Of a stretch of DNA of 44,533 nucleotides, positions 5,599-31,413 are shown piece after piece (within the stretch, counting starts at the first letter, position 1; every line of letters starts with the position of its first letter). The notes beneath the pieces are model-generated. The model was not told the origin of the DNA. It did no database searches and saw only the letters and a program-made list of their open reading frames with translations. The stretch is from a virus, in IMG/VR virus record IMGVR_UViG_3300034407_002014, positions 1 to 44,533 of that record. The stretch is one strand, 5' to 3'. A program made the position numbers and the translations under genes.

Positions 5599-6630
5599 AT
5601 GGTAAGTAAACTAGTTCAAAAAGATGTGAATATTGCTGATTATGGTATTGATGCCATGACTGATGAAGGTCGAGTGCAATTAGTTCCAAATAAAAAAGGC
5701 GTCTTCTCTGTCGATAACTACAACAAAATGATTGATCCAAAAAGTGAGGAATATCAAATGGCCGAAGAAGACCAAGCAGAAATTACAAAAGATTATGAAA
5801 TTTTTTATTCAGATGATGGAGTAAAAAAGGTACGAACCGCAGGCGGTAACGTATATCCAGAGGGAACACCCGAATATACAGAGGTAACTGGCGAAGCAGC
5901 ACAGAATGGTGGATTGCAAATTGCAATGCGTCCAATCATGGCTCTTAATATTATGCGTGTTGAGTTTCCAATTGAAATTATTGATGAACTCAATGAACAC
6001 ATTGATGAAGAAATTATCTCTAAGAGCGATAGTTTCGCTCCAGGCCTAGTTGGTCAATTAAAAAATGATGAGAAATCTGCACAGTTAGATTTTCCGTTTG
6101 ATAATGAAGTAGGTAAACAAGTAGAAACTGTATTCAATCAGATTGGTACAACATATCTTCAACACTTGGGCAGAGATGCAAAGGCTGAAGTAACACAGTG
6201 TTGGACTAACCACGCATATGCTGGTGACTACAATCCGTTCCATGATCACGGTGTAAAGACTGTGGCTGGATTGTCTGGGTTTCTTTGGTTGAAAGTTCCA
6301 CAATGCATTCAAGATACACCTGATGTACCTCGTATCAATAATGCCTCCGGCGGTGTTGATGGTTGGACTCATTTGTGTTGGGGTACTAACACAATGCGTG
6401 ATCTTATGCAGTTGCGTCCTCAAACAGAGGATTATGTAAAACCTATGGAAGGCGTGATGTTAGTATTTCCACAGTGGTTGAAACATCAAGTGATGCCTTT
6501 CTTTGGTGAAGGTGAGCGGCGTTCCATTGCTATGAACTGGAATGTTCATGACAGTGATGATGAGCGTAAGAAATATATGTCAGATCGTGAGGCAAGCTTA
6601 TATGATGAGCAAAAAGCAAAAGAATCCTAG
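5599..6630 (+). CDS. 2OG-Fe(II) oxygenase family protein, 343 aa
   Basis: Long member of the 2-oxoglutarate/Fe(II) dioxygenase superfamily. About 110 N-terminal residues are unassigned, acidic and probably a separate domain. The catalytic part shows NPFHDHG (H-x-H-type iron-binding motif), a SGFLWLKVP strand, LVFPQWLKHQV with the distal histidine, and ERRSIAMNWNV with the 2OG-binding arginine. This resembles the phage family in which the motif is NP-x-H-x-H followed by FPSWL-x-H. Substrate unknown. It has its own promoter and a strong GAGGAG ribosome binding site, and heads an operon running into the DUF3310-like gene and the sliding clamp. Confidence 0.68.
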   Translation: MVSKLVQKDVNIADYGIDAMTDEGRVQLVPNKKGVFSVDNYNKMIDPKSEEYQMAEEDQAEITKDYEIFYSDDGVKKVRTAGGNVYPEGTPEYTEVTGEAAQNGGLQIAMRPIMALNIMRVEFPIEIIDELNEHIDEEIISKSDSFAPGLVGQLKNDEKSAQLDFPFDNEVGKQVETVFNQIGTTYLQHLGRDAKAEVTQCWTNHAYAGDYNPFHDHGVKTVAGLSGFLWLKVPQCIQDTPDVPRINNASGGVDGWTHLCWGTNTMRDLMQLRPQTEDYVKPMEGVMLVFPQWLKHQVMPFFGEGERRSIAMNWNVHDSDDERKKYMSDREASLYDEQKAKES

Positions 6631-6907
6631 TTACAAATACGGTGAGGATAAAATCCTCACCGAATTGAAGGAATACATCGACTCCACCTATGATGAACAC
6701 TATAGTAAGAACAAGTTTCAAGCTACAGAGTTCATCATAGACGGTGGTCATGGTGAAGGTTTCTGTATCGGTAACATAATGAAGTATGCACAGCGGTATG
6801 GAAAAAAAGATGGTAAGAACCGAAGGGACTTGCTAAAAGTGATACACTATGGTATCATTGCATTACACGTTAACGAAATGGAGAATTTAGATAATGAAAC
6901 TAAGTGA
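6602..6907 (+). CDS. DUF3310-type small protein
   Basis: A 101-residue protein whose C-terminal half (GNIMKYAQRYGKKDGKNRRDLLKVIHYG) matches the pattern of the DUF3310 family of phage proteins (G-N-x-x-K-Y...R-G-K...DLxKAxxY). The biochemical role is unknown; the family is often found near phage nucleotide-metabolism and replication genes. ATG 6602 (GAGG nine bases upstream) overlaps the preceding oxygenase; ATG 6605 is an alternative. Its end overlaps the start of the sliding clamp by 14 bases, so the three genes are translationally coupled. Confidence 0.65.
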   Translation: MMSKKQKNPSYKYGEDKILTELKEYIDSTYDEHYSKNKFQATEFIIDGGHGEGFCIGNIMKYAQRYGKKDGKNRRDLLKVIHYGIIALHVNEMENLDNETK

Positions 6908-7556
6908 TACGACTATCTCGGTGTTGAAAAATTATTCCACTATTAATCAGAATTTGATGATTAAAGTTGGGTCTAACCTTTCAACTATGAGTGCTATGAA
7001 GAATATTGTTGCAAGTGCAGATGTTCAAGAGACGTTTGAGAAAGATGTTGCCATCTATGATTTGAACGAATTTCTCGCAACTTTATCTTTGTTTAACAAT
7101 CCAGACTTAGACTTTCAAGATGATTATGTTGTCTTGAGTGAAGAAGGTTCTGGAAGAAAAGCACGGTATTGGTATTCTGATCCATCTGTGGTTACAACTC
7201 TAACAAAAGAAATCACAATGCCTGATCCAGACATTACCTTCTCTTTGTCCAGTGAAGAATTATCAGATGTTACTAAAGCTGCCGCAGTTATCGGTGCGCC
7301 TGATATGTGTCTTGACTCTAGTGGTCTTAAAGTCACTGACAAAAAGAATGATACTGCCAATGATTACTCTTTGCCTATTGTGCAGAAAGGATCGGAAGTC
7401 GTTGATTATAAGTTCTGGTTCAAAGTTGAGAATTTAAAAATTCTGCCGGGAACTTATGATGTGAGTGTATCATCAAAAAACATCAGCAACTTCAAAAATT
7501 CTAATGTAGACATTGAATACTTTATCGCCCTTGAACCAGAATCTAATTACGGTTGA
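6894..7556 (+). CDS. 45: Sliding clamp (gp45)
   Basis: A 220-residue homologue of the T4 DNA polymerase processivity clamp, a trimeric ring that tethers polymerase to DNA and also activates late transcription in T4. Recognised from the overall pattern (start MKLSDTTISVLKNYS, central YDLNEFLATLSLF, C-terminal IEYFIALEPE) and from its position directly before gp44. The length is close to the 228 residues of T4 gp45. The gp45-gp55-gp33 late-transcription link fits with the TATAAATA late promoters found downstream. Confidence 0.92.
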   Translation: MKLSDTTISVLKNYSTINQNLMIKVGSNLSTMSAMKNIVASADVQETFEKDVAIYDLNEFLATLSLFNNPDLDFQDDYVVLSEEGSGRKARYWYSDPSVVTTLTKEITMPDPDITFSLSSEELSDVTKAAAVIGAPDMCLDSSGLKVTDKKNDTANDYSLPIVQKGSEVVDYKFWFKVENLKILPGTYDVSVSSKNISNFKNSNVDIEYFIALEPESNYG

Positions 7557-7572
7557 TAGGGGATTATATATT

Positions 7573-8508
7573 ATGGAAGAATTTTTGTGGGTGGAGAAAT
7601 ACCGTCCAGCTGATGTTCAATCGTGCATTTTACCAAACCAATTAAAATCAACCTTATCAGAATTTGTGTCGTCTGGTGATATTCCAAATGTCACATTTTC
7701 TGGTAAGCCAGGTTGCGGGAAGACTACTGCTGCAAAAGCAATGCTTGATGAGTTGGGTCTAACCTATATGATGATCAACGGTTCTGAAGAGTCTGGTATT
7801 GATGTTCTCAGAACCAAGATCAAAAACTTTGCTTCCACTGTGTCATTACATGGTGGTCGCAAATATCTGATTTTGGATGAGGCAGATTATCTCAATCCTC
7901 AATCAACGCAGCCTGCATTGCGTGGGTTCATCGAAGAGTTTAGTGCAAACTGTGGATTTATTCTCACATGCAATTATGTGAATAGAATTATCCCAGCACT
8001 TATCTCACGGTGTCCAACTTATGACTTTGCAATCCCAAAAGATGAAGAGAAAACACTACAAGGTGAATTCTTTTTGAGGGCACTAAATATTCTTAAACAA
8101 GAAAATGTTGAATGTGAAAAAAGAGCTGTAGTTTCTCTTGTACAAAAACATTTTCCTGATTGGCGTAGAGTTCTAAACGAACTGCAAAGATACTCTGTGT
8201 CGGGTAAGATAGATGCTGGTGTTCTTGTAAACATCTCAACCAATAACATGAATCAATTGATTGGATTTATGAAAAACAAGGAGTTTACAAATGTTCGTGA
8301 ATGGGTTGTTCAAAATCTTGACAACGATCCTACTCGTTTGTTCCGTTCTCTTTACGACACTATGTACGATTATATGGATGGCTCTAGTCTTCCCCACGTT
8401 GTTGTTATACTCGGCGAGTATCAGTATAAGGCGGCATTTGTTGCTGATCAAGAAATCAACACTCTCGCTTGTTTGACAGAGATTATGGCTCGAGGTAAGT
8501 TTAAATGA
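7573..8508 (+). CDS. 44: Clamp loader large subunit (gp44)
   Basis: A 311-residue AAA+ ATPase that, with gp62, opens and loads the gp45 clamp. It begins MEEFLWVEKYRP, the typical RFC/gp44 N-terminus. Walker A is SGKPGCGKTT, Walker B ILDEADYL (DEAD), sensor 1 LTCNYVNRI and the SRC box LISRCP. ATG 7573 is chosen over an upstream in-frame start because it begins this signature and has AGGGGA upstream. Its stop overlaps the start of the next gene (ATGA). Confidence 0.95.
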   Translation: MEEFLWVEKYRPADVQSCILPNQLKSTLSEFVSSGDIPNVTFSGKPGCGKTTAAKAMLDELGLTYMMINGSEESGIDVLRTKIKNFASTVSLHGGRKYLILDEADYLNPQSTQPALRGFIEEFSANCGFILTCNYVNRIIPALISRCPTYDFAIPKDEEKTLQGEFFLRALNILKQENVECEKRAVVSLVQKHFPDWRRVLNELQRYSVSGKIDAGVLVNISTNNMNQLIGFMKNKEFTNVREWVVQNLDNDPTRLFRSLYDTMYDYMDGSSLPHVVVILGEYQYKAAFVADQEINTLACLTEIMARGKFK

Positions 8509-9167
8509 GTGTATATGTTATGGATAATGTGTTGACTCCAGAGTGGGCCCGGTCGATAGAAAATATTGTTATGAGTGGTAGTTATAAATGGGGTGGCAAA
8601 AGTCTCTCCATGTCCACTAATTATTATCCCTTAGAATTACCAAAAGGATTAAAGTGGGGAGATTGGGAACCGAAATCAGGTCCTAATTATCATTGGATTA
8701 AGAAGTTTGGACATAATGAAAAAGATTTGATCAAGTCAGGCAATGAATGGTGTGTTCAATTGTGGGAGCAATTATTTGTTAACTGCAAATTGAAAGAACA
8801 TTTCAATATTGAAGAGATGATAGATTGTTACATTAATGTTCACACGCATGGTCAAGCTCCACATCTTCATCCTGATAATGGTAACTTTACCTTACTATAT
8901 TATCCACAATTAAACTGGGACTATAAAAACTGGGGTGGTGGTACAACTATTTGGGAACCAGATATCGACGGTGTTGAGAATATAGAAAAACTTGAAATTT
9001 TAAATCACGTTTCATATAAGGGAAATCGGTTGGTCATGTTTGATGGATGGCACTGGCATAGACCCGAGCCTGTTGCAAGAGTTTGCAAAGAGGCAAGATA
9101 TGTTGTTGTCTATAAAACTGGTAAGGATGGTGGGAACAGTAAAAGGTTAGATTACCATGACAATTGA
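8505..9167 (+). CDS. 2OG-Fe(II) oxygenase (tandem copy 1)
   Basis: A 220-residue dioxygenase: H-x-x-x-D-type iron site in APHLHPDNG, strand FTLLYYPQLNW, the glycine-rich NWGGGTTIW, distal histidine in WHWHRPEPV and the arginine in ARYVVVY. It is paralogous to the gene that follows, sharing FTxxYYP, WGGGTTIW, GNRL and a C-terminal RLD tail. Substrate unknown. Inserted between gp44 and gp62, which are adjacent in T4, and overlapping both neighbours, so it is expressed with the replication proteins. Confidence 0.75.
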   Translation: MSVYVMDNVLTPEWARSIENIVMSGSYKWGGKSLSMSTNYYPLELPKGLKWGDWEPKSGPNYHWIKKFGHNEKDLIKSGNEWCVQLWEQLFVNCKLKEHFNIEEMIDCYINVHTHGQAPHLHPDNGNFTLLYYPQLNWDYKNWGGGTTIWEPDIDGVENIEKLEILNHVSYKGNRLVMFDGWHWHRPEPVARVCKEARYVVVYKTGKDGGNSKRLDYHDN

Positions 9168-9732
9168 TGTTTACGATAATGTTTTCTCAGATGTTGATTC
9201 TCAACTTATTGATACCATAATGTCAGACAAAGAGTTTATGTGGCAGTTTTATCATACATCAGAAAAATCTGAACCTATATATCACTGGCATCGTTTAGCT
9301 GGACATACAAAAGATGAAATAGAAAAAAATGGTTTTGAGTGGTTGTTACCATTTTGGGATCATATTGTGAATAAATATGAAATCAACAAAAAATATGGTG
9401 TCGAAAAATTTCGTAGGATTTATTTCAACGCTCACACTTACGGGATAGAACCAAGGCCGCATATTGACGATGGTGATTTTACAATGATGTATTATCCATT
9501 ATTATCTTGGCGCAAGGATTGGGGCGGTGGCACTACTATTTGGAATGAAGATACCAGTGATGTAGAAAAACATGTTGCATACACAGGGAACAGATTAATT
9601 GTTTTCCCTGCCAAAAGATTACATCAAGCTCAACCCGTTCACATAGATTGTTATAAGTTGAGAAGTGTTATCGTATTTAAGTGTTGGAAGGATGATCCAA
9701 GTGATGAAAGACTTGACTTCTACAAAAATTAA
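9157..9732 (+). CDS. 2OG-Fe(II) oxygenase (tandem copy 2)
   Basis: A 191-residue paralogue of the preceding gene: H-x-D in RPHIDDGDFTMMYYP, DWGGGTTIW, distal histidine in RLHQAQPV and RSVIVFK with the 2OG-binding arginine. The start overlaps the end of the first copy. The two copies are divergent, so this is not a recent duplication. It could hydroxylate a protein side chain or a nucleic acid; nothing in the sequence decides this. Confidence 0.75.
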   Translation: MTIDVYDNVFSDVDSQLIDTIMSDKEFMWQFYHTSEKSEPIYHWHRLAGHTKDEIEKNGFEWLLPFWDHIVNKYEINKKYGVEKFRRIYFNAHTYGIEPRPHIDDGDFTMMYYPLLSWRKDWGGGTTIWNEDTSDVEKHVAYTGNRLIVFPAKRLHQAQPVHIDCYKLRSVIVFKCWKDDPSDERLDFYKN

Positions 9733-10147: not shown

Positions 10148-10543
10148 ATGTATGAATTAAAAGATTATCTAAACGCAATCAACCAAACAAAAGAACCTTT
10201 GATGGACAGTGAGGATGAAACGTGGGAAAAGAAATATCCACCTTTCGTTGTCAACAAATGCCTCATGCCATTTCAAGATACCATATTATTTGTCAATGAG
10301 ATTAACCAACTACCACATATAGACAAGAAACTACAATTTGACTTTTTTCTAAATAGTCTACGACCAAGAAAAAGATTTAGTCCTTGGGCGAAGGCGAAGA
10401 AATTAGATGATCTAGAGTATGTGAAAGAGTATTATGGCTACAACAATGAAAAAGCAAAGGTTGCTCTTGATATACTTGATGATGAACAAATTTCTGCCAT
10501 AAAACGAAGAACAAGAAAAGGCGGAAAAAATGGAACAAGTTAG
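10148..10543 (+). CDS. 62: Clamp loader small subunit (gp62)
   Basis: A 131-residue protein matching marine T4-like gp62: start YELKDYLNAIN, central KKYPPFVVNKCL, then DKKLQFDFFLNSLRP. It forms the clamp loader with gp44. It is shorter than T4 gp62 (187 residues), as usual in cyanophage-type relatives. The end overlaps the regA start by 14 bases, the same gene order as T4. Confidence 0.85.
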   Translation: MYELKDYLNAINQTKEPLMDSEDETWEKKYPPFVVNKCLMPFQDTILFVNEINQLPHIDKKLQFDFFLNSLRPRKRFSPWAKAKKLDDLEYVKEYYGYNNEKAKVALDILDDEQISAIKRRTRKGGKNGTS

Positions 10544-10931
10544 TTGGACACAAAATGATATGTTGGAGATTAGTCTGAAAGAACCAGACGATTTTCTAAA
10601 GGTCAGAGAAACACTTTCTCGTATTGGAGTTGCTTCAAGAAAAGAAAAAAAATTATATCAGTCTTGTCATATTTTACATAAGCAAGGTAAGTATTATATT
10701 GTTCATTTCAAAGAACTGTTTGCATTGGACGGTAAGGATACGAACTTATCAAAAAATGATATCGCAAGAAGAAATACGATTGTTAATCTTTTGGATGATT
10801 GGGGATTGGTTGAGGTTTTGGGTACGGCCGAACCAGCCGCTCCTCTAAGTCAAATTAAAGTTATATCATATAAAGAAAAGTCTGATTGGACCCTTGAGAC
10901 AAAATACAACATTGGTAAAAAACGGGACTAA
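10530..10931 (+). CDS. regA: RegA translational repressor
   Basis: A 133-residue homologue of T4 RegA, which binds ribosome-binding regions of early mRNAs and represses their translation. Diagnostic segments are EPDDFLKVRETLSRIGVASR, LYQSCHILHKQGKYYIVHFKELFALDG and the IARRNTIVNLLDDWGLV region. It follows gp62 as in T4. Its presence suggests translational autoregulation of the replication cluster. Confidence 0.93.
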   Translation: MEQVSWTQNDMLEISLKEPDDFLKVRETLSRIGVASRKEKKLYQSCHILHKQGKYYIVHFKELFALDGKDTNLSKNDIARRNTIVNLLDDWGLVEVLGTAEPAAPLSQIKVISYKEKSDWTLETKYNIGKKRD

Positions 10932-10935
10932 TATC

Positions 10936-12300
10936 TTGGAAAACTTTAAGTCTTTCATAACAGAACAAAACAGCGATAGCTATCGTGTTGTGGTGGTATC
11001 CAATGAGCTTGGAGAAAAGGCAATCACTGCAAAAAGGATGCAAGAAGAAGCAGATAAATTAAAGTATCCAAACTATGTGGTTCCTATGGATGGAACTTAT
11101 ACTGTATTTAATGACGGTGTTAGAACTATACATAAACAAGATGATGATAAAGGGTTTGAGATACACACGAATGATACAGTTGTATTTGTGCGTGGCACCC
11201 CAGAAAGAGACAGTCATTTAGATTTAATAACTCAACTTCAACGAGCTGGATATTGTGTTATTAATAGTAGAGAGTGTTTAGAGGTTGCAACTGACAAATA
11301 CAGATCATATCTTAGACTGAAAGATTTTGGTCTTACTCAACCAAAAACTGTTCTTGTTCCTAATGAAGAAACTATAGAAAAATCATTTGAGGAGCTTGAT
11401 ACTAAATTTCCTATAGTGTTAAAAACTCTTAGAGGCTCTAAAGGTGTTGGTGTGTTGTTTGTCGAATCAGAGAGGTCACTAAACTCTTTGGTTCAACTTT
11501 TGTTCAAACAAGATAGTAAAACAGATATTTTGATTCAAGAGTACATCAAAACAGATTTTGATGTTAGGGTCTTAGTTCTTGGTGGTAAAGTTATTGCGAC
11601 CATGAAAAGAAAAGTCGTTGAAGGTGACTTTAGAAGTAATGCCTCTCAAGGTGCAGATGTTGAAAAATATAATTTAACAGAATTAGAATTGGAACAGTGC
11701 ATTCTTGCTGCAAAAGCAATCGGTGGTATATTCACTGGTGTTGACTTCATACCATCCTCTGATCCAGAAAATAAACCACCATATATTCTAGAAATCAATA
11801 GCTCTCCTGGCACAGAAAATATAGAAAAAGTGAACAACAAAAATATTGTAAAGGATATTTTGACATACTTCGACAATCCAGATTTAAGATATACTGTTCC
11901 AAATGAATGTGGATGGGAAGAGGTTGTAGAAATAAAGCCATTTGGTCAATTGACTGCAAAGTTTGACACGGGCAACTACAAATATCCTGTTCTTCATGCT
12001 GATGATATCTCAGTAAAAGAAAAGAAAATTTCTTTTAAAAACAATAATAAAACTATAACAACAAACCTTGTTGGTGAATACACATCTGTTACCGGCGGTG
12101 GTGAAGATGATAGGTATATTGTAGAATTAGAATTTGAGTTCGCTGGAACGAATTATGGAAAGGTAATGTTTGGCTTGGATAACAGAGATAGAATGGGAAC
12201 AGATGTTTTATTAAATCGTAAAATCATGAGAGATTTAAATATCATGGTAAACCCACAAAGAAAATATTTAATTACTACGCCAATGTCTCTTGACAAATAA
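10936..12300 (+). CDS. RimK-like ATP-grasp ligase fused to aspartyl protease
   Basis: A 454-residue fusion. Residues 110-300 form an ATP-grasp ligase of the RimK type: GSKGVGVLF (167-175), ILIQEYI (198-204), ILEINSSPG (284-292). Residues 335-450 resemble the retropepsin-like domain linked to RimK systems: FDTGNYKYPVLHA (343-355, catalytic-type D344) and DNRDRMGTDVLLNR. RimK adds glutamates to ribosomal protein S6; a protease partner could trim such tails. TTG at 10936 is chosen: it yields the N-terminus MENFKSFITE, which resembles the T4 internal-protein capsid-targeting sequence MKTYQEFIAE. It could therefore be packaged and injected. Upstream TTG codons (10894, 10912) would extend into regA. 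Confidence 0.7.
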   Translation: MENFKSFITEQNSDSYRVVVVSNELGEKAITAKRMQEEADKLKYPNYVVPMDGTYTVFNDGVRTIHKQDDDKGFEIHTNDTVVFVRGTPERDSHLDLITQLQRAGYCVINSRECLEVATDKYRSYLRLKDFGLTQPKTVLVPNEETIEKSFEELDTKFPIVLKTLRGSKGVGVLFVESERSLNSLVQLLFKQDSKTDILIQEYIKTDFDVRVLVLGGKVIATMKRKVVEGDFRSNASQGADVEKYNLTELELEQCILAAKAIGGIFTGVDFIPSSDPENKPPYILEINSSPGTENIEKVNNKNIVKDILTYFDNPDLRYTVPNECGWEEVVEIKPFGQLTAKFDTGNYKYPVLHADDISVKEKKISFKNNNKTITTNLVGEYTSVTGGGEDDRYIVELEFEFAGTNYGKVMFGLDNRDRMGTDVLLNRKIMRDLNIMVNPQRKYLITTPMSLDK

Positions 12301-12324: not shown

Positions 12325-14814
12325 ATGGACTTCTATACAAATGTACTTCAGTGGGGCAACACTATCTTTTACAGAGGTGTTGAAAATGGTCAACGTATCA
12401 AGAAGAAAGTTCGGTATTCACCGACTCTGTTCGATCTTGTACAAACTCCTACAAATTACAAAACCTTAGATGGACGATATGTAGAGCCACATCAATTTGC
12501 TTCTATCGAAAAAGCAAAAGATTGGTATGACAGTCGTAAAAATCAAGATGTAATCTTCGGCAACAATCAGTATGCCTACTGCTATATCAGTGATGAGTAC
12601 CCTAATGATGTGCCGTGGGACAAAGATAAAATCTGTATTGTCACAATTGACATTGAGGTGGAGTGTGAAAATGGATTTCCGAATCCAAGACAAGCAGAAG
12701 AGCCTCTTCTGTCAATCACTCTTAAAAATCATCAGAACAAAAAAATTATGGTCTGGGGCTTGCATGAATTTCAAAACTATCGTGATGATGTAACCTACAT
12801 TCAATGTAGGGATGAGGCTGACTTGCTTCGTAAGTTTGTTCATGAGTGGTCGGTTATTGAGCCAGACGTTATCACTGGTTGGAACACAGAGTTCTTTGAT
12901 ATTCCTTATCTGTGTAATCGTCTTGCAAAAGTATTTGATGAGGAGTCTGTCAAGGCTCTCTCTCCTTGGGGTAGAGTTCATGATCGTGAAGTTTATCAGA
13001 TGGGCCGCAAACATCAAATATATACGATCTATGGCATTGCTGCTTTAGATTACTTTGACTTGTATCGTAAGTTCACTTATACGAACCAAGAACGTTACAC
13101 GTTGGATCATATTGCATTCGTTGAATTAGGAGAACGAAAAGACGGAAATCCGTTTGAGACATTTAAAGAATGGTATCAGAAAGATTATCAGTCGTTCATT
13201 GAATACAATATCACTGACGTTGAGCTTGTTGATAAGCTTGAAGATAAGATGCGCCTTATTGAGTTGTGTCTAACAATGGCATATGATGCAAAGGTAAACC
13301 TGACAGATGTTCTTGGCTCTGTTCGTTATTGGGATAATATTATTTACAATCACCTTCGCAAGCAAAATATAGTCATTCCACAAAAGAGAGAAAGTGAAAA
13401 GTCAGAAAAGTTTGAGGGTGCCTATGTCAAAGACCCTCAAGTGGGTATGCACAAATGGGTCATGTCTTTTGACTTGAACAGTCTTTATCCACACTTAATT
13501 ATGCAATACAATATTTCGCCAGAGACATTGGTGAATGGTAATGTTAAAATTAAAGATGGTATGGTAGATAAAATTCTTGACGGTAAAGTTAAGAACAATA
13601 CAGAACATTGCATGACTCCTAATGGTGCATTTTTCCGTAAGGACAAAAAAGGGTTTCTACCAGAGCTAATGGAGAACATGTACAATGATCGTGTCAAGTA
13701 TAAAAAACTTCTTCTCGAAGCTAAGCAAGATTATGAAAACACTGGTGACCCCGCAACACTCAAACTTATATCTCGCTACGACAACATCCAAATGGCGAAG
13801 AAGATTGCTCTTAATTCCGCTTACGGTGCAATTGGTAATAACTATTTTCGTTATTTTGATCTCATGGTCGCTACAGCAATTACGAGCAGCGGTCAGTTAT
13901 CTATACGATGGATTGAAAAGGCTCTTAACATATATCTCAACAAGATTCTTAAAACTGATAAAGTTGATTACGTCATTGCAAGCGATACAGATTCGGTGTA
14001 TATCACTTTTGACGTTCTGGTTGACAAGGTGTTTAAATCGGGAAGAACAGATGAGGAAGTTGTCAATTTCTTGGACCGTCTTGCAAAAGAGAAGTTGGAA
14101 CCTTTTATTGGGGAAAGTTATCAAGCTCTTGCTAAGAGTATGAATGCATTAGAACAGAAGATGTTCATGGCTCGAGAGGCAATCGCAGATAAAGGTATCT
14201 GGACTGCAAAGAAACGTTACATTCTAAACGTTCATGATATGGAAGGTGTGAGGTTCAAAGAACCAACACTGAAGATCATGGGTATCGAAGCGGTTAAGAG
14301 TTCAACGCCTGCACCGTGTCGAGAGAAGATTAAGGAGGCTCTCAAAATTATCATGAGTGATGATGAAAAGATGCTAAATAGTTTCATCAGAGACTTTAGA
14401 GAAGAGTTTATGAAGTTGCCGCCAGAGGATATTGCATATCCCAGAAGCTGTAATGGTGTTGAAAAGTTTAGAGGAGAGTCAAAGTTGTTTGCGAAGGGTG
14501 CGCCTATTCATGTCAAGGGGGCGATCTTGTATAATCATCTATTGAAGAAAGATAGGTTGGATAACAAGTATCCTTTCATTCAAGAGGGCGACAAGATTCG
14601 TTTTTTACATTTACGTCAACCAAATTTATATCAATCGTCTGCATTTTCTTTCATGACAGAGGTGCCAAAGGAACTTGACATTTATGATAAAATAGACTAT
14701 GATGAACAATTCGAGAAAAGTTTTGTCGAGCCACTCAAGGTTATCACTGAAAAGATAAATTGGTTGATCGACAGCAGTTATGGTGTGCAAGGAACATTAG
14801 AGGATTTCTTTTGA
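12325..14814 (+). CDS. 43: Family B DNA polymerase (gp43)
   Basis: An 829-residue replicative polymerase with 3'-5' exonuclease. Exo I is VTIDIEVECE, Exo II lies in TGWNTEFFDIPYL and Exo III around YNITDVELVDKL. Polymerase motif A is SFDLNSLYPHLI, motif B KIALNSAYGAIGN and motif C ASDTDSVY. The C-terminal GTLEDFF resembles the clamp-binding tail of T4 gp43. It is shorter than T4 gp43 (898 residues), as in marine relatives. Its promoter puts the transcription start on the ATG. The last four bases overlap the TTG start of the cytosine methyltransferase, linking the two in one operon. Confidence 0.96.
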   Translation: MDFYTNVLQWGNTIFYRGVENGQRIKKKVRYSPTLFDLVQTPTNYKTLDGRYVEPHQFASIEKAKDWYDSRKNQDVIFGNNQYAYCYISDEYPNDVPWDKDKICIVTIDIEVECENGFPNPRQAEEPLLSITLKNHQNKKIMVWGLHEFQNYRDDVTYIQCRDEADLLRKFVHEWSVIEPDVITGWNTEFFDIPYLCNRLAKVFDEESVKALSPWGRVHDREVYQMGRKHQIYTIYGIAALDYFDLYRKFTYTNQERYTLDHIAFVELGERKDGNPFETFKEWYQKDYQSFIEYNITDVELVDKLEDKMRLIELCLTMAYDAKVNLTDVLGSVRYWDNIIYNHLRKQNIVIPQKRESEKSEKFEGAYVKDPQVGMHKWVMSFDLNSLYPHLIMQYNISPETLVNGNVKIKDGMVDKILDGKVKNNTEHCMTPNGAFFRKDKKGFLPELMENMYNDRVKYKKLLLEAKQDYENTGDPATLKLISRYDNIQMAKKIALNSAYGAIGNNYFRYFDLMVATAITSSGQLSIRWIEKALNIYLNKILKTDKVDYVIASDTDSVYITFDVLVDKVFKSGRTDEEVVNFLDRLAKEKLEPFIGESYQALAKSMNALEQKMFMAREAIADKGIWTAKKRYILNVHDMEGVRFKEPTLKIMGIEAVKSSTPAPCREKIKEALKIIMSDDEKMLNSFIRDFREEFMKLPPEDIAYPRSCNGVEKFRGESKLFAKGAPIHVKGAILYNHLLKKDRLDNKYPFIQEGDKIRFLHLRQPNLYQSSAFSFMTEVPKELDIYDKIDYDEQFEKSFVEPLKVITEKINWLIDSSYGVQGTLEDFF

Positions 14815-16016
14815 GATATTTTAGATACACATTAGATGACTTGCAAAAGTCAGCAGATAGAAAACTATTCACATACATTTCATTCTTTGCGGGTGGTGGT
14901 GGATCATCATGTGGTTACAAACTTTCTGGCGGTGATTGTAAATTTGTAAATGAGTTTCAGCAAGTTGCAGTTGATACATATCTTGCGAACTGGCCAGATA
15001 CTCCACATATTTGTGGTGACATAAAAAATGTCACTGGTAAACAGATTATGGAGATGACGGGACTGAAGAAGTATGAGCTGGACATTATGGATGGTTCGCC
15101 ACCTTGCCCGCCTTTCAGTATGTCTGGAACTAAGAAAGAAGGATGGAACAAAGAGAAGACTGCCTATGGTATGAAGCAACAGAATATTGAAGACCTAACA
15201 TGGGAAATGATACGCATTGCAAAAGACCTCATGCCTAAGGTTATTATATGTGAGAATGTCAAGGGTTTGACAATGGACTATGCAAGGGATCATCTAAATC
15301 GTATGGTTAGTGATTTTGAAGCACTTGGATATAATACAACATATAAGGTTCTTAATGGTGTAAACTTTGGAGTGCCGCAGAAAAGAGAGCGTGTTTTTAT
15401 TGTATCTGTGCGTGAAGATGTAATGGATGATATTGGAATGTCTTGGATGCTCCTGTCTTCATTATATCCAGAGCCTGCTAATGAAGAACCTACGATAGAA
15501 CAAGCAATTGGTGATTTGCAACTTAATAATAAAAATCGTGTAGAAGCTGAAGAGCTTTGTGAAATTATGAAGAAAAGTGCTAAATACAAATGGTTGAAGA
15601 GATTACCTAAAAATCCAGATAAAGTTGTATCAGTGGGAGATGACGTTGTAAAGCAATTCTGGGAAAAGGTTATTACACACAGGAAAAAGTGGGGCAAGAG
15701 TATTCCAGAGGCAAAACATTCTTTCTACCAATCAAGACGAGTCCCGACAAATCAGCCTTCTCATAGCCTTACTGAACAGGGTCTTGCAAGTTTATCCGTT
15801 CATCTTCATTATGCCGAGGATCGTATTTTTACTCCGCTTGAAGCTGCAAGACTTATGACGCTTCCAGAGGATTATGCTAACCCGTCTGAAGATATCTTTG
15901 AACGAGGAAAACGTATCGGTCTGATGGTTGCGCCACTACAAATGTATTATCTTGCATCATCAATATATGAAACTATTTTGGAGCCGTGGAATGAAGTACA
16001 TAACCGCACAAATTGA
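14811..16016 (+). CDS. DNA cytosine-C5 methyltransferase
   Basis: A 401-residue C5 methyltransferase that would convert cytosine to 5-methylcytosine in DNA. Motif I is SFFAGGGGSSCGY (24-36); motif IV GSPPCPPFS carries the catalytic C99; motif VI is CENV (147-150); motif VIII is PQKRERVFIV (189-198); C-terminal motifs IX/X are around SHSLTEQG and FTPLEAARLMTLPEDY. Start TTG 14811 has AGAGGA six bases upstream and overlaps the polymerase stop. It overlaps the TET-like gene by 26 bases, so the two are translationally coupled. The recognition sequence cannot be read here; phage TET-associated methyltransferases described so far include GpC-type enzymes. Confidence 0.93.
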   Translation: MRYFRYTLDDLQKSADRKLFTYISFFAGGGGSSCGYKLSGGDCKFVNEFQQVAVDTYLANWPDTPHICGDIKNVTGKQIMEMTGLKKYELDIMDGSPPCPPFSMSGTKKEGWNKEKTAYGMKQQNIEDLTWEMIRIAKDLMPKVIICENVKGLTMDYARDHLNRMVSDFEALGYNTTYKVLNGVNFGVPQKRERVFIVSVREDVMDDIGMSWMLLSSLYPEPANEEPTIEQAIGDLQLNNKNRVEAEELCEIMKKSAKYKWLKRLPKNPDKVVSVGDDVVKQFWEKVITHRKKWGKSIPEAKHSFYQSRRVPTNQPSHSLTEQGLASLSVHLHYAEDRIFTPLEAARLMTLPEDYANPSEDIFERGKRIGLMVAPLQMYYLASSIYETILEPWNEVHNRTN

Positions 16017-16962
16017 TCTTGGTGAGAAAGAAATATTTCAGAAATACAATGGTAAATTTCTGGAAGAATCAGATGCACAAGATTTAATCACTGTGACAGA
16101 GGACACAGCAATCATGAAGCCTATTGCATCACTTGATGGTTCTGATGTGCCACTTGCTTATGTGATGTGTGATGCGTTCCCAAATGATAATGTGAGAAAT
16201 GTACTAGCAACTATTGAAGACACAAGCACCATGAGAGCAAATTGTTCTGGACCTATTGATAAGGAAGAGATGGCTGCGAAGGGATTGATAGAGGGTGAGC
16301 ATTATAAACTACGCACACCAAACTCTTATCATGTGAGAACTAAGAATGGTGGTTGGGGGATGATTGCTTATGCTTCAGAAATCCACAGCGTAATGATCGG
16401 TTATAAAAGAGGCAGATTTACTGGTGGCATCGACGCATCTGGTTGGACAAAAAGTAATCCAGAGAAATTTGAGATACTAAAAGAAATTGCAGTTTATAAC
16501 GAAAAAGCATTTGACAAAGCAAATCCTATGGTCTATAATAAACAAAGAAAGTTCGCAGAGAATTTTATTCGACCAGAACATAGGATTGGGATATTTACAA
16601 CGTTGAGTGCAAATCGTTATCATGCTGGACAATCATCGAAGATGTCTGCCCATATCGACTCGGGCGACACTGAATTTGGAATGACCAGCATGTGTGTATT
16701 TCGTCAAGGAGCTTATGAAGGGGCATATCTAGTATTTCCAAGATATGGTATAGGGATAGATGCTCCAGATAATTCAGTGATTATTGCAGATTCAAGAGAG
16801 GTGCATGGTGTGACCCCAATTAGAGGAAACGGAGAACGGTTCAGTTGTGTGGCGTACTGTGACAACCGATTGGCAACGATTGGGGTTGCAGGGAAATCAG
16901 AGAGGAAGATAGGTCGATTTGCAAAGGAAGAAAATGGAAATCTTGAAGCTTTTTTTGAATAA
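15991..16962 (+). CDS. TET/JBP-like 5mC dioxygenase
   Basis: A 323-residue protein. The C-terminal half has a TET/JBP-type 2OG-Fe(II) core: H221-x-D223 in SAHIDSGD, a YLVFPRYGIGID segment (247-257), distal H272 in REVHGVTP and R283 in ERFSCVAY. These match the pattern of phage TET-like enzymes that oxidise 5-methylcytosine to 5-hydroxymethylcytosine. ATG 15991 is supported by GGAG seven bases upstream. The N-terminal 190 residues are unassigned and may position DNA. Co-translation with a C5 methyltransferase and a downstream T4-AGT-like glucosyltransferase strongly supports the call. It could instead act on thymine as JBP does; the methyltransferase partner argues against that. Confidence 0.75.
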   Translation: MKYITAQIDLGEKEIFQKYNGKFLEESDAQDLITVTEDTAIMKPIASLDGSDVPLAYVMCDAFPNDNVRNVLATIEDTSTMRANCSGPIDKEEMAAKGLIEGEHYKLRTPNSYHVRTKNGGWGMIAYASEIHSVMIGYKRGRFTGGIDASGWTKSNPEKFEILKEIAVYNEKAFDKANPMVYNKQRKFAENFIRPEHRIGIFTTLSANRYHAGQSSKMSAHIDSGDTEFGMTSMCVFRQGAYEGAYLVFPRYGIGIDAPDNSVIIADSREVHGVTPIRGNGERFSCVAYCDNRLATIGVAGKSERKIGRFAKEENGNLEAFFE

Positions 16963-17022: not shown

Positions 17023-18600
17023 ATGAAGTTGGTTGGGAAACAAAAAGCTGCAGTTAGGAAGAAGGCTTGGCAAGAGTCTTTTGCTAAGAGATGTGAAGAG
17101 ATTGAAACTCTGTATAAAGATTCTTTTGAGAAGGCTGTAAAAGCAGGAGTTCTCAACTCAAAGGAAGTTTCAAATCTCATTAAGATCATGGTTGCTCCAA
17201 TGCGGTTTGGAAAGACTAGACTTGCAATCACGCACCATATACCTTTTTTACTAAAGCACACAGACGTTAACTGTGTTGTTTTTACAAGTCCTTTAGGTTC
17301 TATACTCAAACAAAAATTAAGATTAATCGAAGAAGTCGTTAGCGATCTTGTTGGCGTTATATACTGTGATTCTCCAGTAAGAGCAATGGGTCACTTAAAG
17401 AGGGGCAGAAAGGTTGTCCTTACTATGACTAACCAAAATGCTTACGTTATGCAAAAATCAGAGGAATTATATGATTCATTAGATAAAAGCAGAACTGCAT
17501 TTATCGTTGATGAAGCACATACTTGGACTACAGATTGCCCAGAGAATATCGGTAACACTATCGGCGGGGATGGTGGTAACTTTAAGGGTGCTTTGTATGC
17601 GAGACTCAAAGAATTTGCCCCATACACACCTTTTATCTTTGGACTCACTGCCACAACAAATAATCAGCACGACGGTTATGTTCCAGCACTTGGTAACATG
17701 CAATTCATTGTTGTTAATCCAGAATTTGTTGAGGATGGAAAGGTCGTTCGTGATCTAGCTTATCGGTTGGGATGGTTTGATCCTGAGAGAGTTCGTTTTA
17801 TGGATGACTCTCCTCTTTTTGGAAAATCAATACAGGATCATTTCAATGATATGATTGATGTTCAGATGGCTAGAGAAAAACTCGCAGAACAAAAACTTAC
17901 AGTCTTTATTGAAGCAAAGAGAAAGGAGCAAAATAAAGATAATAATGAGTGTCTTGCAGAGGTAAAAAAATTCATAAGAGAGTCTAACTTTGAAGCAGAT
18001 GATGTGAATGAAAATTCACCAGTGACTTTCATGATGAACTCTAATGAAATTGCTTCGTATAACAAGAACGGTGATAAGATCGAAAACGTAACGGAAGAAG
18101 CAGTTTTTGATTATCTTGCTGATCTATCTCACCCATCAAGATTTTTAATCATTGTTGATATGGCAAAGATGGGTGTGGATTTACCAACGACTAAACTCAT
18201 GTTTTCCTTTAGGACTTGGGCGAAGAAAGCAAAGGACTTTAAGAGATTTGGATTCATTATAGAAGCAGCTTTACAAAAGTTTGGTAGACTTTTGACAGGA
18301 AATTCTGGTGTATCTGAAGACGAGTTTTTTGATGAGGAAGGCTTATATCTCGGTGATTTTAGAAACGTTTCAAATTTTCATCCAGAAATGAACATGATGG
18401 ATTATTGGGTCATGGATAATGGCATGAATAGAAACGCCATGGATGTTTTTGGACAAATGTTCGCACCCCCCATGCCGGACATGGAGTCTTATTTAGAAGA
18501 TGATTGTTGTCCCACATGTGGCCAGCCTTGGCCTGAGGGCAACGCAGAGATAGATATGGATATGTCTAAAATTGATAAAGTTCTACTAGCTGCCGAATGA
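17023..18600 (+). CDS. SF2 DEAH helicase with C-terminal zinc motif
   Basis: A 525-residue superfamily 2 helicase/translocase: Walker A-like APMRFGKTRL (first glycine replaced), motif II VDEAHTW, motif III GLTATT, a C-terminal RecA domain with VDMAKMGVDLP and motif VI-like LQKFGRLLTGN. A CCPTCGQPWP segment near the end looks like half a zinc ribbon. It is not an obvious UvsW or gp41; a role in unwinding or moving along modified DNA is inference. ATG 17023 is preferred to 17008 because GGAGAG lies at the proper distance before it. The stop overlaps the glucosyltransferase start by 4 bases. Confidence 0.72.
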   Translation: MKLVGKQKAAVRKKAWQESFAKRCEEIETLYKDSFEKAVKAGVLNSKEVSNLIKIMVAPMRFGKTRLAITHHIPFLLKHTDVNCVVFTSPLGSILKQKLRLIEEVVSDLVGVIYCDSPVRAMGHLKRGRKVVLTMTNQNAYVMQKSEELYDSLDKSRTAFIVDEAHTWTTDCPENIGNTIGGDGGNFKGALYARLKEFAPYTPFIFGLTATTNNQHDGYVPALGNMQFIVVNPEFVEDGKVVRDLAYRLGWFDPERVRFMDDSPLFGKSIQDHFNDMIDVQMAREKLAEQKLTVFIEAKRKEQNKDNNECLAEVKKFIRESNFEADDVNENSPVTFMMNSNEIASYNKNGDKIENVTEEAVFDYLADLSHPSRFLIIVDMAKMGVDLPTTKLMFSFRTWAKKAKDFKRFGFIIEAALQKFGRLLTGNSGVSEDEFFDEEGLYLGDFRNVSNFHPEMNMMDYWVMDNGMNRNAMDVFGQMFAPPMPDMESYLEDDCCPTCGQPWPEGNAEIDMDMSKIDKVLLAAE

Positions 18601-19769
18601 AAATCTCTATAGTATTAGGTAGAGGTATTGAAGGATGCGGTGTGACCAAAAATTCTGTCGAGTGGGAAACTTGGCTAGAAGATAATGGTCACACTGTAGC
18701 CGTCTATGCATCTAAAGATAAAAAATGGTCGAGAGACAGCGCTCATAATATTAAGAATCTAGTTCATGTTCGATTTGATAATGATGATTTCGATCAAGTT
18801 TATGAGGGGTGCAAGTCCTCTGACATAATTATCTTTAGCTCTCTGCCGTCCACAAACCACAGTCAGAAGTGCGTCAATAACTTCTCTAAATTATTTGATT
18901 TAGATGTTAAGAAAGTATCTTTTCAGCACGATCACAATAAGTCAAGCTTGAGGAGAAACAACCAAAAACTTCTCATGGACAGTATCGAAAAGGTTGATAT
19001 GATCTTTGCACACTCCACAATGAGTGATTTTGCAGATATGGTCAAGACTCCAAATCTATTTGATATGAGAGAAAGAGAGATACATTTACGTCAGCCTGCA
19101 ATAAACTTTGAAGAGCATAAGAAATATCGAAAGTCAGTAGACCAGCAAGACTCTAAGCATCACAAATGGGTAGGAAGAACTGCTCGGTGGAAAGGGTATG
19201 ACTTGATGTTTAGCTGGCATAATTGTCTGAAAGATATTGGCCACCTAACTACATTTGAAGGAATTGAAAAGAGTCCAGTATTCATAGAGTTTAAAAGGGA
19301 TTTTGAGTTTTACGATTGCTTAGGTCTAAATCCAGATGAAGTAGACTTGCAAGATAGATACGGTGAAAAGGCCACTGTTTTCTCTCAATATATAAATGAG
19401 GAAATGCTAGAAAGAATGTCACGATGTGGTTTTGGATATCAGCTCAGTATCTTAGATGAAAAGTTCCTAGAGAAATCTTTAGAATTCACTCATTTGGAAA
19501 TTGTTGCAGTTGGAGCAATACCCGTCTTCAGAAAGGAATACGGCGACATTTGTATTCATCGGTATTATGATAAACCTTTAACAGAGTTAGATAGTGGAAC
19601 AATATGGCTTTCTCATGACAACATGGAAGAGTGTAGAGGTTTAGTGCAAGAGCTGTCTGTGAATGAAGACCTGAGAGATGAGTATAGAAATAAATCATAT
19701 GAAGTATATTCTTATTATGATAGCAAATATATTATTCAAGAAATGTTTGATAAAATAGTGGAATTTTAA
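18597..19769 (+). CDS. agt: DNA alpha-glucosyltransferase, T4 AGT homologue
   Basis: A 390-residue GT-B glycosyltransferase close to T4 alpha-glucosyltransferase, which transfers glucose from UDP-glucose to 5-hydroxymethylcytosine in DNA. Shared segments include the N-terminal RGIEGCGVTK (T4 RGLEGCGVTK), FQHDHNKSSLRR (T4 YQHDHSVLSLRR), WVGRTARWKG (T4 WIGRTTTWKG), FGYQLS (same in T4) and SLEFTHLE...GAIPVF (T4 SLEYTHLE...GTIPVF). Length is close to T4 AGT (400). No dCMP hydroxymethylase (gp42) is in the window; 5hmC would instead come from the C5 methyltransferase and TET-like enzyme upstream. It overlaps the helicase stop (ATGA) and is followed by a 2OG oxygenase. Confidence 0.93.
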   Translation: MKISIVLGRGIEGCGVTKNSVEWETWLEDNGHTVAVYASKDKKWSRDSAHNIKNLVHVRFDNDDFDQVYEGCKSSDIIIFSSLPSTNHSQKCVNNFSKLFDLDVKKVSFQHDHNKSSLRRNNQKLLMDSIEKVDMIFAHSTMSDFADMVKTPNLFDMREREIHLRQPAINFEEHKKYRKSVDQQDSKHHKWVGRTARWKGYDLMFSWHNCLKDIGHLTTFEGIEKSPVFIEFKRDFEFYDCLGLNPDEVDLQDRYGEKATVFSQYINEEMLERMSRCGFGYQLSILDEKFLEKSLEFTHLEIVAVGAIPVFRKEYGDICIHRYYDKPLTELDSGTIWLSHDNMEECRGLVQELSVNEDLRDEYRNKSYEVYSYYDSKYIIQEMFDKIVEF

Positions 19770-19770
19770 A

Positions 19771-20316
19771 ATGGATAACTTGATTAAAATATATGATGAT
19801 GCTGTTCCATCAAATTTTTGTGATTCTCTTGTTGAAAAATTTGAGAAGAGCTCAGATCAGTGGGATGTGCAATCAAACACAAATTATGATTTTACCCAGA
19901 TAGACATGGGTAAACATATGAAAGATTGGGGCGCAGATTTTGGAGAATTATTGAATCACCTTTTTGCTTGCGTTGGAAAATACAAGGAAGATATTAAACC
20001 TTCCTGGCCAGACAAACATGGGTTTGAATCTCCCAGAATAAAACGTTATATGCCAAATGATACTGATGAGTTTAGAAACCATGTGGATGTTAACACAAAT
20101 AAAAATTGTGTTCGGTTTCTGGTGTTCTTTTTATATCTGGTGGACAATGAAGCTGGTCAAACAGTGATAAATCCAATTGGTGGTGATCAGGTAATATCTC
20201 CATGCAAAAAAGGGAGTGTATTGTGTTTCCCCCCTATGTGGACGCACCCACATGCTGGTCTAAAACCTGTGCGTGACCCAAAATATATTGTAGGGAGTTA
20301 TTTACATTATGCATGA
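19771..20316 (+). CDS. 2OG-Fe(II) oxygenase, P4H-like
   Basis: A 181-residue dioxygenase of the prolyl-4-hydroxylase type: H-x-D in FRNHVDVN, strand FLVFFLYL, a GSVLCFPPMWTHPHAG segment with the distal histidine, and a C-terminal KYIVGSYLHY strand; the 2OG-binding basic residue is likely the lysine or arginine in VRDPKYIV. It sits one base after the glucosyltransferase and overlaps the next methyltransferase. Location in the DNA-modification operon makes further oxidation of the modified base or sugar possible, but this is inference. Confidence 0.72.
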   Translation: MDNLIKIYDDAVPSNFCDSLVEKFEKSSDQWDVQSNTNYDFTQIDMGKHMKDWGADFGELLNHLFACVGKYKEDIKPSWPDKHGFESPRIKRYMPNDTDEFRNHVDVNTNKNCVRFLVFFLYLVDNEAGQTVINPIGGDQVISPCKKGSVLCFPPMWTHPHAGLKPVRDPKYIVGSYLHYA

Positions 20317-30798: not shown

Positions 30799-30806
30799 TA
30801 TAAATA
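30799..30806 (+). promoter_or_regulatory. T4-type late promoter (TATAAATA)
   Basis: Exact late consensus directly after the terminator, 19 bases before the ATG at 30825; begins the next late operon. Confidence 0.8.
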
Positions 30807-30824: not shown

Positions 30825-31001
30825 ATGAAAGTGCTTTCAGAAATTAAAGGTCATATTCATACGGATGTAATAAATGTGAAAGACCCATATTACGGTGATA
30901 TTAAAGTCACCTATGGAAAACCAAAATCGCAGTTTCTTGAGGAGCAAATTCGCACAGAATTGCCTGTAGAGAATGGAGAGGAAAATGAAAAAGTTCAGTA
31001 A
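30825..31001 (+). CDS. Small hypothetical protein, 58 aa
   Basis: ORF beginning MKVLSEIKGH and ending with the basic/acidic tail ENEKVQ. GAGGGAG lies eight bases before the ATG and a late promoter just upstream, which makes it a credible gene despite its size. It overlaps the start of the next gene by 17 bases. Function unknown; the position at the head of a late operon suggests a virion or assembly protein. Confidence 0.6.
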   Translation: MKVLSEIKGHIHTDVINVKDPYYGDIKVTYGKPKSQFLEEQIRTELPVENGEENEKVQ

Positions 31002-31413
31002 ATTCGTTGCCGAAGCTGGGCAACCAGAGATTCCAAATGAACCAACATATGGTCGCAACCCATCTAATGGATATTTAACAGCAGATGTTGTTAGAAAACT
31101 CAACTCTGTTGTAGGTAGAATTTTTGAAGAGGACCAGTTTGATCCATATAATAGACTTCAGCTGATGCGTAATTCTTTGTTGAAGCTTGGTTTGACTTTT
31201 GGAGAGTATCCATCTATGAGTGAGGAGAACGGTGAGTTTAGCATGCCCCTTACATTGTTCGGTGGTCGTTTTGGTAAAGATGAAAATACGCCATATGATG
31301 AGTTTTTACAAGATGACGGTATAAGCAACCAAGTTGAAGGTGGATTGAGTTTGAACGTTAGTTATGAAATGACAGAGACTAACCAGTTTCGGATTCGAGC
31401 CAAAATCTCATAG
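30985..31413 (+). CDS. Capsid-targeted internal protein candidate, 142 aa
   Basis: The N-terminus MKKFSKFVAEAGQPE is very like the capsid-targeting sequence of T4 internal proteins (MKTYQEFIAE, cut before A). GGAGAGG lies just upstream of ATG 30985, which is preferred to ATG 30973. The remainder is a globular acidic domain of unknown function (segments LTFGEYPSM and TLFGGRFGKD). I infer a protein packaged in the head and perhaps ejected with DNA. Confidence 0.6.
   Translation: MKKFSKFVAEAGQPEIPNEPTYGRNPSNGYLTADVVRKLNSVVGRIFEEDQFDPYNRLQLMRNSLLKLGLTFGEYPSMSEENGEFSMPLTLFGGRFGKDENTPYDEFLQDDGISNQVEGGLSLNVSYEMTETNQFRIRAKIS

Follow-up and report, generated by a model that had tools for sequence, protein, structure and literature searches.

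Why should a T4-like phage keep a gene for a fused ligase and protease among its replication genes, and begin it with ten residues that read like the packaging leader of a T4 head protein? The DNA analysed here (the window, a virus record of 44,533 bases) raises this question at positions 10936-12300, where a sequence-only reading had noticed the fusion, the leader and the position, and had gone on to interpret the product as a packaged and injected enzyme that modifies ribosomal protein S6. The observation is confirmed and the interpretation is partly supported. The features concerned are these:

6894-7556: sliding clamp, upstream of regA
7513-8508 and 10148-10543: clamp loader, upstream of regA
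10530-10931, + strand: regA translational regulator, immediate upstream neighbour (PF01818, 1.1e-43)
10936-12300, + strand: fusion gene joining a RimK ligase to a RimB-type retropepsin, 454 aa from a TTG start (open reading frame and profile matches)
10936-10965, + strand: leader M-E-N-F-K-S-F-I-T-E, residues 1-10, of T4 internal-protein type; cleavage by the prohead protease is predicted to follow E10 (base 10965)
10966-10980, + strand: variable linker, residues 11-15 (entropy 1.5-2.4 bits per column)
10981-11889, + strand: RimK ATP-grasp ligase module, residues 16-318 (structure match, TIGR00768)
11743-11799, + strand: predicted metal-binding residues D270, E286 and N288 (aligned with E. coli RimK chain 4iwx)
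11887-12276, + strand: RimB-type retropepsin domain (PF05618), residues 318-447 (profile and structure matches)
11965-11973, + strand: catalytic motif D344-T-G (aligned with the DTG of 9g59)
12325-14814, + strand: DNA polymerase gp43 (family B), the next gene downstream (PF00136)

Both halves of the protein are readily recognized. The ligase module matches PF08443 (RimK) at residues 118-311 with 2.5e-41, passes the RimK family model TIGR00768 (168.8 bits against a cut-off of 143.4) and, over residues 16-318, aligns (VIA-align) with RimK crystal structures, 7qyr giving Z 31.1 (285 residues aligned, rmsd 2.8) and the RimK-RpsF complex 5zk6 Z 30.1. Its residues D270, E286 and N288, which we take to be the Mg ligands, are invariant in 33/33 relatives. 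For the retropepsin half, PF05618 scores 23.9 bits against a cut-off of 27 on the whole protein (4.2e-5, residues 326-447) and, in a six-frame search, 26.8 bits, or 28 with neighbouring matches in frame, against a gathering score of 27. When modelled alone (pLDDT 84), this C-terminal domain resembles the PF05618 crystal structure 2pma (Z 16.1, rmsd 2.2, 120 aligned) as well as 9g59 and 9g58 (Z 15.1), with retroviral proteases at Z 9-10; its DTG motif is likewise invariant (33/33). The fusion itself holds, and all 33 non-redundant relatives match both families. An AlphaFold2 model built with these 33 relatives as input has a mean pLDDT of 83, with residues 1-13 below 50 and the variable linker next, so that the leader is predicted to lie outside the fold. 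Judging from its two families, the enzyme should build and trim glutamate chains on proteins.

The combination is not new. Monier, Claverie and Ogata (2008, Genome Biol 9:R106; PMC2530865), in the parts of their paper that concern phage RimK, described over a hundred GOS contigs in which phage rimK adjoins regA, with PF05618 (DUF785, of unknown function at that time) following the ligase in several of them, and also one RimK-then-RimB fusion from Halobacteria. The window gene is of the same family, has the same regA neighbour and shows the ligase-then-PF05618 order of several of theirs. A novel fusion was therefore rejected, as fusion, order and position were all published in 2008 and RimBK hybrids are also known; the remark that the two domains are usually separate genes is only partly right, there being fusions in bacteria, archaea and marine phages. 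Our own scan for cellular fusions (one genome scan, with narrow patterns) gave 11 loci, eight of which match the ligase part only, and no cellular RimK-then-RimB fusion was seen among them; the three near-full-length loci (L155-L157) are viral, as their contigs also carry regA and gp43 in order.

That the gene lies inside a replication cluster, as had been noted, is borne out by its surroundings: only four bases separate the regA stop from its TTG and 24 bases its end from the gp43 start, with the clamp and clamp loader further upstream. The arrangement recurs, regA being directly upstream of rimK in 65/67 loci and gp43 usually downstream (44/67). Such a position, and the absence of a late-promoter box in the 150 bases upstream of the RimK-RimB gene, would suit an early or middle enzyme that is made after infection and never packaged, and that modifies S6 or some other host protein while its leader serves as a local docking peptide (for example on the ribosome or the replisome). 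An analogy with the T7 kinase, from which Monier et al. suggested S6 modification by phage RimK in that part of their work, argues in the same direction.

The start codon was the acknowledged weak point of the sequence-only reading, yet it holds. A scan of viral contigs yielded 61 loci, of which 59 could be scored for a leader (L050 and L061 have no N-terminus), and an alignment of 33 sequences was made from 50/61 loci plus the window after removal of near-duplicates at 97% identity (L002, L026, L045, L050, L051, L056-L061 and the phage Mosig are outside it). At the same place the aligned genes start with ATG (20/33) or TTG (13/33), and many relatives have an in-frame stop 3-48 nt upstream; the ATG starts in 20 homologues show that the window's TTG is right. 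The strict motif [FY]xx[FY][ILV]xE stands at the N-terminus in 54/59 loci, as FKSFITE (21), FRSYVTE (8), FKSFISE (6) or other variants (19). In the alignment, F4, F7 and E10 are each conserved in 31/33 relatives and position 8 is I in 27/33. The codons for F4 and F7 are a mixture of TTT and TTC, which indicates that selection acts on the protein. By chance the loose form of the motif, [FY]xx[FY][ILV]xE, occurs in 1/1057 sequence windows that follow an internal Met and in 5/50,025 at the exact offset.

Homologues without the leader would have told against it. With 54 of the 59 keeping the strict motif, this check came out mostly in its favour. Of the five that lack it, L043 and L044 have a degenerate leader (KIKTFLEQ and KIKTFSEQ), and L051, L056 and L060 start differently, though an L-x-E precedes their linker. 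A divergent RimK clade, made up of the last three and L156, has the N-terminus MSKSFQMVRNSRKTLVEQ or MTNSFSMVRKARGTLAEE, in which the linker is again preceded by an L-x-E site; perhaps this is a second leader type. The RimK of cyanophage S-CAM8 (one of the cyanophage matches) has no leader, and its gene is beside psbD rather than regA.

What the conserved positions might do is suggested by T4. According to the relevant passages of PMC9026906, the first ten residues of IPIII suffice for packaging, with positions 4 and 7 important in targeting and positions 8 and 10 in processing; the prohead protease gp21 cleaves after L/I-x-E. The window leader fits all four IPIII positions (F4, F7, I8 and E10). 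The earlier comparison with T4 internal-protein leaders stands, IPII and IPIII both reading MKTYQEFIAE in the T4 record, and the I-x-E site that had been pointed out at the end of the leader is indeed there. The positions under constraint are the very ones mapped in IPIII, and predicted packaging is well supported by comparison. The major head protein of T4 offers a parallel: gp23 reads FGSFLTE, ending at residue 65, and is processed at 65 with removal of the first 65 residues (PMC9958956). The phages Mosig and Melnitz also encode a gp21-type prohead protease, along with a major capsid protein containing FLSE-A.

The prohead protease provides a further likeness. Mosig gp21 has more than 595 relatives, and in each of the 80 best-scoring loci (53 distinct tails) the C-terminal tail has an [ILV]xE site followed by [FY]xx[FY][ILM]. 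The tail of Mosig itself is LAE-AKVNVFKNFLEKL, and its FKNFLEKL may be set against the FKNYLEEA of the Mosig RimK leader. The tail of T4 gp21 has no F-x-x-F motif, which limits the link between gp21 and the leader to the marine group.

The leader is also rare and portable. A motif scan that recovered IPII and IPIII in T4, as its positive control, found the RimK fusion to be the sole annotated gene with a leader in the 141 kb of Mosig; a second mechanical match starts at an internal TTG within an annotated endonuclease gene, and a spurious internal-TTG match also occurred in the Melnitz clamp loader. With just one annotated Mosig protein carrying it, the idea that the leader is a generic phage N-terminus was rejected. 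The Melnitz RimK has no protease domain but keeps the leader, which is present in the same phage on a DUF6267 protein (three cyanophage DUF6267 homologues are without it) and on one further protein. In four loci (L022, L198, L199 and L200) a PGA_cap protein of 535-536 residues is encoded between regA and rimK (in L022, PF09587 with E 4.5e-60, the C-terminal part being AstE-like at weak scores); it begins MEQFKSFLNE or MKTFKSFLNE, and the RimK that follows begins MEQFKSFITE or MEKFKSFITE. At a fifth PGA_cap locus (L201) the start is MKIFNEFEPT and the cleavage site is absent. A PAP2 phosphatase between regA and rimK (L016, L017, L019) starts with a variant leader, MKRFTSHFVE, which the 7 close relatives viewed retain; the stand-alone PAP2 relatives L222-L224 are without it.

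Two observations on neighbouring families may be recorded here. In L220 and L221 a long multi-module frame ends in a PAP2 domain related to the leader-bearing phosphatase. A 106-aa module of L013 (L226-L301; 20/80 loci viewed) mostly ends very long frames of repeated modules, which have many L/I/V-x-E sites and F-K-x-F motifs; these frames could possibly encode a polyprotein of the head that the prohead protease cleaves.

In the window, the motif scan found the leader on two proteins, the RimK-RimB fusion and one of 142 residues:

30799-30806, + strand: TATAAATA, T4 late-promoter box match, lying 186 bases ahead of the second leader-bearing gene
30985-31413, + strand: second leader-bearing gene, 142 aa, beginning M-K-K-F-S-K-F-V-A-E-A (motif scan)

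No family match was obtained for the 142-residue protein. Relatives of it occur in Melnitz, in HTVC008M and in 7 viral contigs, and the leaders of the window protein and its contig relatives read MKKFSKFVAE, MKKFSKFMAE, MKPFKKFIVE, MKQFKNFIAE, MRTFRNFILE and MKKFKQMIAE. Those of HTVC008M (MKSFKDFQNV) and Melnitz (MKNFKNHIAE) deviate, so the motif is looser in this family. Six TATAAATA boxes are present in the window, at 1019, 21010, 29966, 30799, 34744 and 44159, all on the + strand and none on the other; as presumably this is the T4 late-promoter consensus, they are candidate late promoters. The window also encodes, together, a C-5 cytosine methylase (14760-16016), a TET/JBP oxygenase (15928-16962) and a T4-type DNA alpha-glucosyltransferase (18597-19769), by their families a predicted pathway from 5mC to glucosylated hydroxymethylcytosine, as well as several 2OG-Fe(II) oxygenases (5599-6630, 8505-9167, 9157-9732 and 19771-20316), of which Mosig too has many. 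In T4, IPI inhibits GmrSD; since IPI protects such DNA, the second leader protein may be its counterpart.

As far as occurrence goes, then, the leader is a module on unrelated proteins: RimK-RimB, RimK alone, PGA_cap, the 142-residue family, DUF6267 and another Melnitz protein. Being rare, portable and similar in its core to the gp21 tails, it looks like a tag rather than a part of the enzyme, and by these comparisons it is likely a head-targeting signal. The same facts weigh against the unpackaged early enzyme, whose docking peptide would not be expected to recur on otherwise unrelated proteins, to share its core with the tails of the prohead protease, or to carry that protease's exact site; despite the gene order in its favor, we think that account unlikely. 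Very unlikely is a variant in which the enzyme is packaged and acts inside the head, RimK extending or RimB trimming the Glu ends of gp21 fragments during maturation. Cleavage after L/I-x-E (PMC9026906, in the passages on gp21) means that mature fragments end in Glu, RimK extends a C-terminal Glu according to the portions of the RimK literature that bear on this, and PGA_cap, by name a second glutamate-polymer family, has the same leader next door; nevertheless it is doubtful that a packed head offers a supply of ATP or lets an enzyme work, and RimK specificity probably needs more than a terminal Glu. Finally, it is extremely unlikely that the leader is a sliding-clamp-binding peptide tethering the enzyme to the replication complex, for although the gene is within the clamp, clamp-loader and polymerase cluster and Mosig gp55 has FTEFLQK near its C-terminus, the idea is not supported by the gp55, gp33 and gp43 ends of Mosig and Melnitz: the polymerase C-termini, which are likely to bind the clamp, differ (TLEDFF in the window, SLEAFFG in Mosig, TLEDFFG in Melnitz), the matching YVEYLQK of Melnitz gp55 is followed by a long tail and is thus not a terminal peptide, and E10 and the likeness to gp21 are left unexplained.

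We therefore prefer packaging, and put the probability of the full reading, a head-packaged and probably injected polyglutamate ligase/protease, at roughly 0.65. During assembly the ten-residue leader would bind the scaffold core through F4 and F7, in the manner of the capsid targeting sequences of T4 IPII and IPIII, and a gp21-type prohead protease would cut after E10 in the I-x-E site. The mature RimK-RimB enzyme would remain inside the capsid and enter the cell with the DNA; once there, it would extend protein C-termini with glutamates by its RimK module and trim polyglutamate by its RimB module, an action that would precede phage gene expression. Packaging, cleavage, injection and activity are all steps that we infer. 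Taken singly, the presence of the enzyme in the virion appears likely from its sequence, and the chance that, once injected, it modifies or trims a host protein seems about even.

The only virion evidence comes from Yersinia phage YerA41, whose gp066, annotated 'structural protein', is a homologue with both ligase and retropepsin, aligning over 95% of the query at 31% identity and thus full-length. By gene order it is the same as g112, a 'Ribosomal protein modification protein' detected by LC-MS/MS in purified particles (PMC7354516). YerA41 belongs to another phage group, the gene is not beside regA and the F-x-x-F-I-x-E leader is absent, so its detection is no test of the leader; moreover, the 63/201 proteins found in those particles include many replication enzymes (PMC7354516), and carry-over is therefore possible. 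By analogy the detection supports the view that enzymes of this kind can be packaged; on how the leader works it has no bearing. For the marine T4-like group, the open-access literature yielded no virion proteomics and no report of RimK in its virions.

As to the target, ribosomal S6 is the obvious candidate, and the sequence-only reading had named it, but support for it is absent here. The S6-ligase equivalog model NF007764 gives 95.7 bits against a cut-off of 331. In the relevant part of a recent study of RimB, a retropepsin cutting polyglutamate (Little et al. 2025, PMC11957791), a RimBK hybrid cut polyglutamylated S6 and its glutamylation of S6 was not seen, which further weakens the case. 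The MAGs holding the three near-full-length fusion copies, on contigs that look viral, do have S6 genes; in the family of one such MAG, which may not include the hosts, S6 is present in 25/28 genomes, and none of the 18/25 tails viewed ends in Glu. S21, considered as a sign of ribosome takeover, is encoded by Mosig and Melnitz and was not found in the window. S6 thus seems to us a doubtful target, and the neighbouring leader-bearing PGA_cap enzyme points, by its family name only, to glutamate polymers.

A wider and more tentative possibility is that the regA-gp43 interval of marine T4-like phages is a cargo locus, in which the genes that settle carry the head-targeting leader: RimK-RimB, the PGA_cap/AstE-like enzyme, the PAP2 phosphatase and a DUF5754-like protein (for relatives of the DUF5754 type, N-termini were viewed in 20/80 loci). 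The phage might then inject a glutamate-polymer write-and-erase system that changes a host protein at DNA entry; and, if the same tag is the C-terminal propeptide of the prohead protease, one motif would load both protease and cargo. T4-like phages abound in the sea, and beyond the enterobacterial phages there are few whose injected proteins have been worked out. With a loading tag that can be read, candidate injected cargo could be listed from sequence alone, and the phage RimK fusion, unexplained since 2008, would be assigned to a place where its action can be tested, namely the virion and the opening minutes of an infection.

It remains to compare the protein with the systems it resembles. 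The RimBK of Desulfotalea psychrophila and the RimB of Pseudomonas have the same two activities (PMC11957791, in the part concerned); RimBK, however, is bacterial, has RimB at its N-terminus and lacks a leader, and given the order RimK then RimB we rejected the window protein as a RimBK-type hybrid. The relevant parts of Monier et al. mention neither leader nor packaging, and no paper linking a capsid targeting sequence with these phages was found in the open-access literature; as far as our searches reach, the N-terminal leader on a phage RimK is new. With T4 IPII and IPIII the window leader shares the aromatics at 4 and 7 as well as I8 and E10, whereas IPI (MKTFKEFTST) has F4 and F7 and not I8 or E10; these are small proteins whose packaging is proven, unlike the RimK enzyme, for which it is deduced from sequence. 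A further parallel is T4 Alt, an injected enzyme. Going by its description in part of PMC9026906, this ADP-ribosyltransferase is likewise a protein-modifying enzyme that is packaged in the head and processed by gp21. Its chemistry is different from that of RimK-RimB and, if our reading is true, an injected polyglutamate ligase/protease would be a host-takeover chemistry unlike the ADP-ribosylation of T4.
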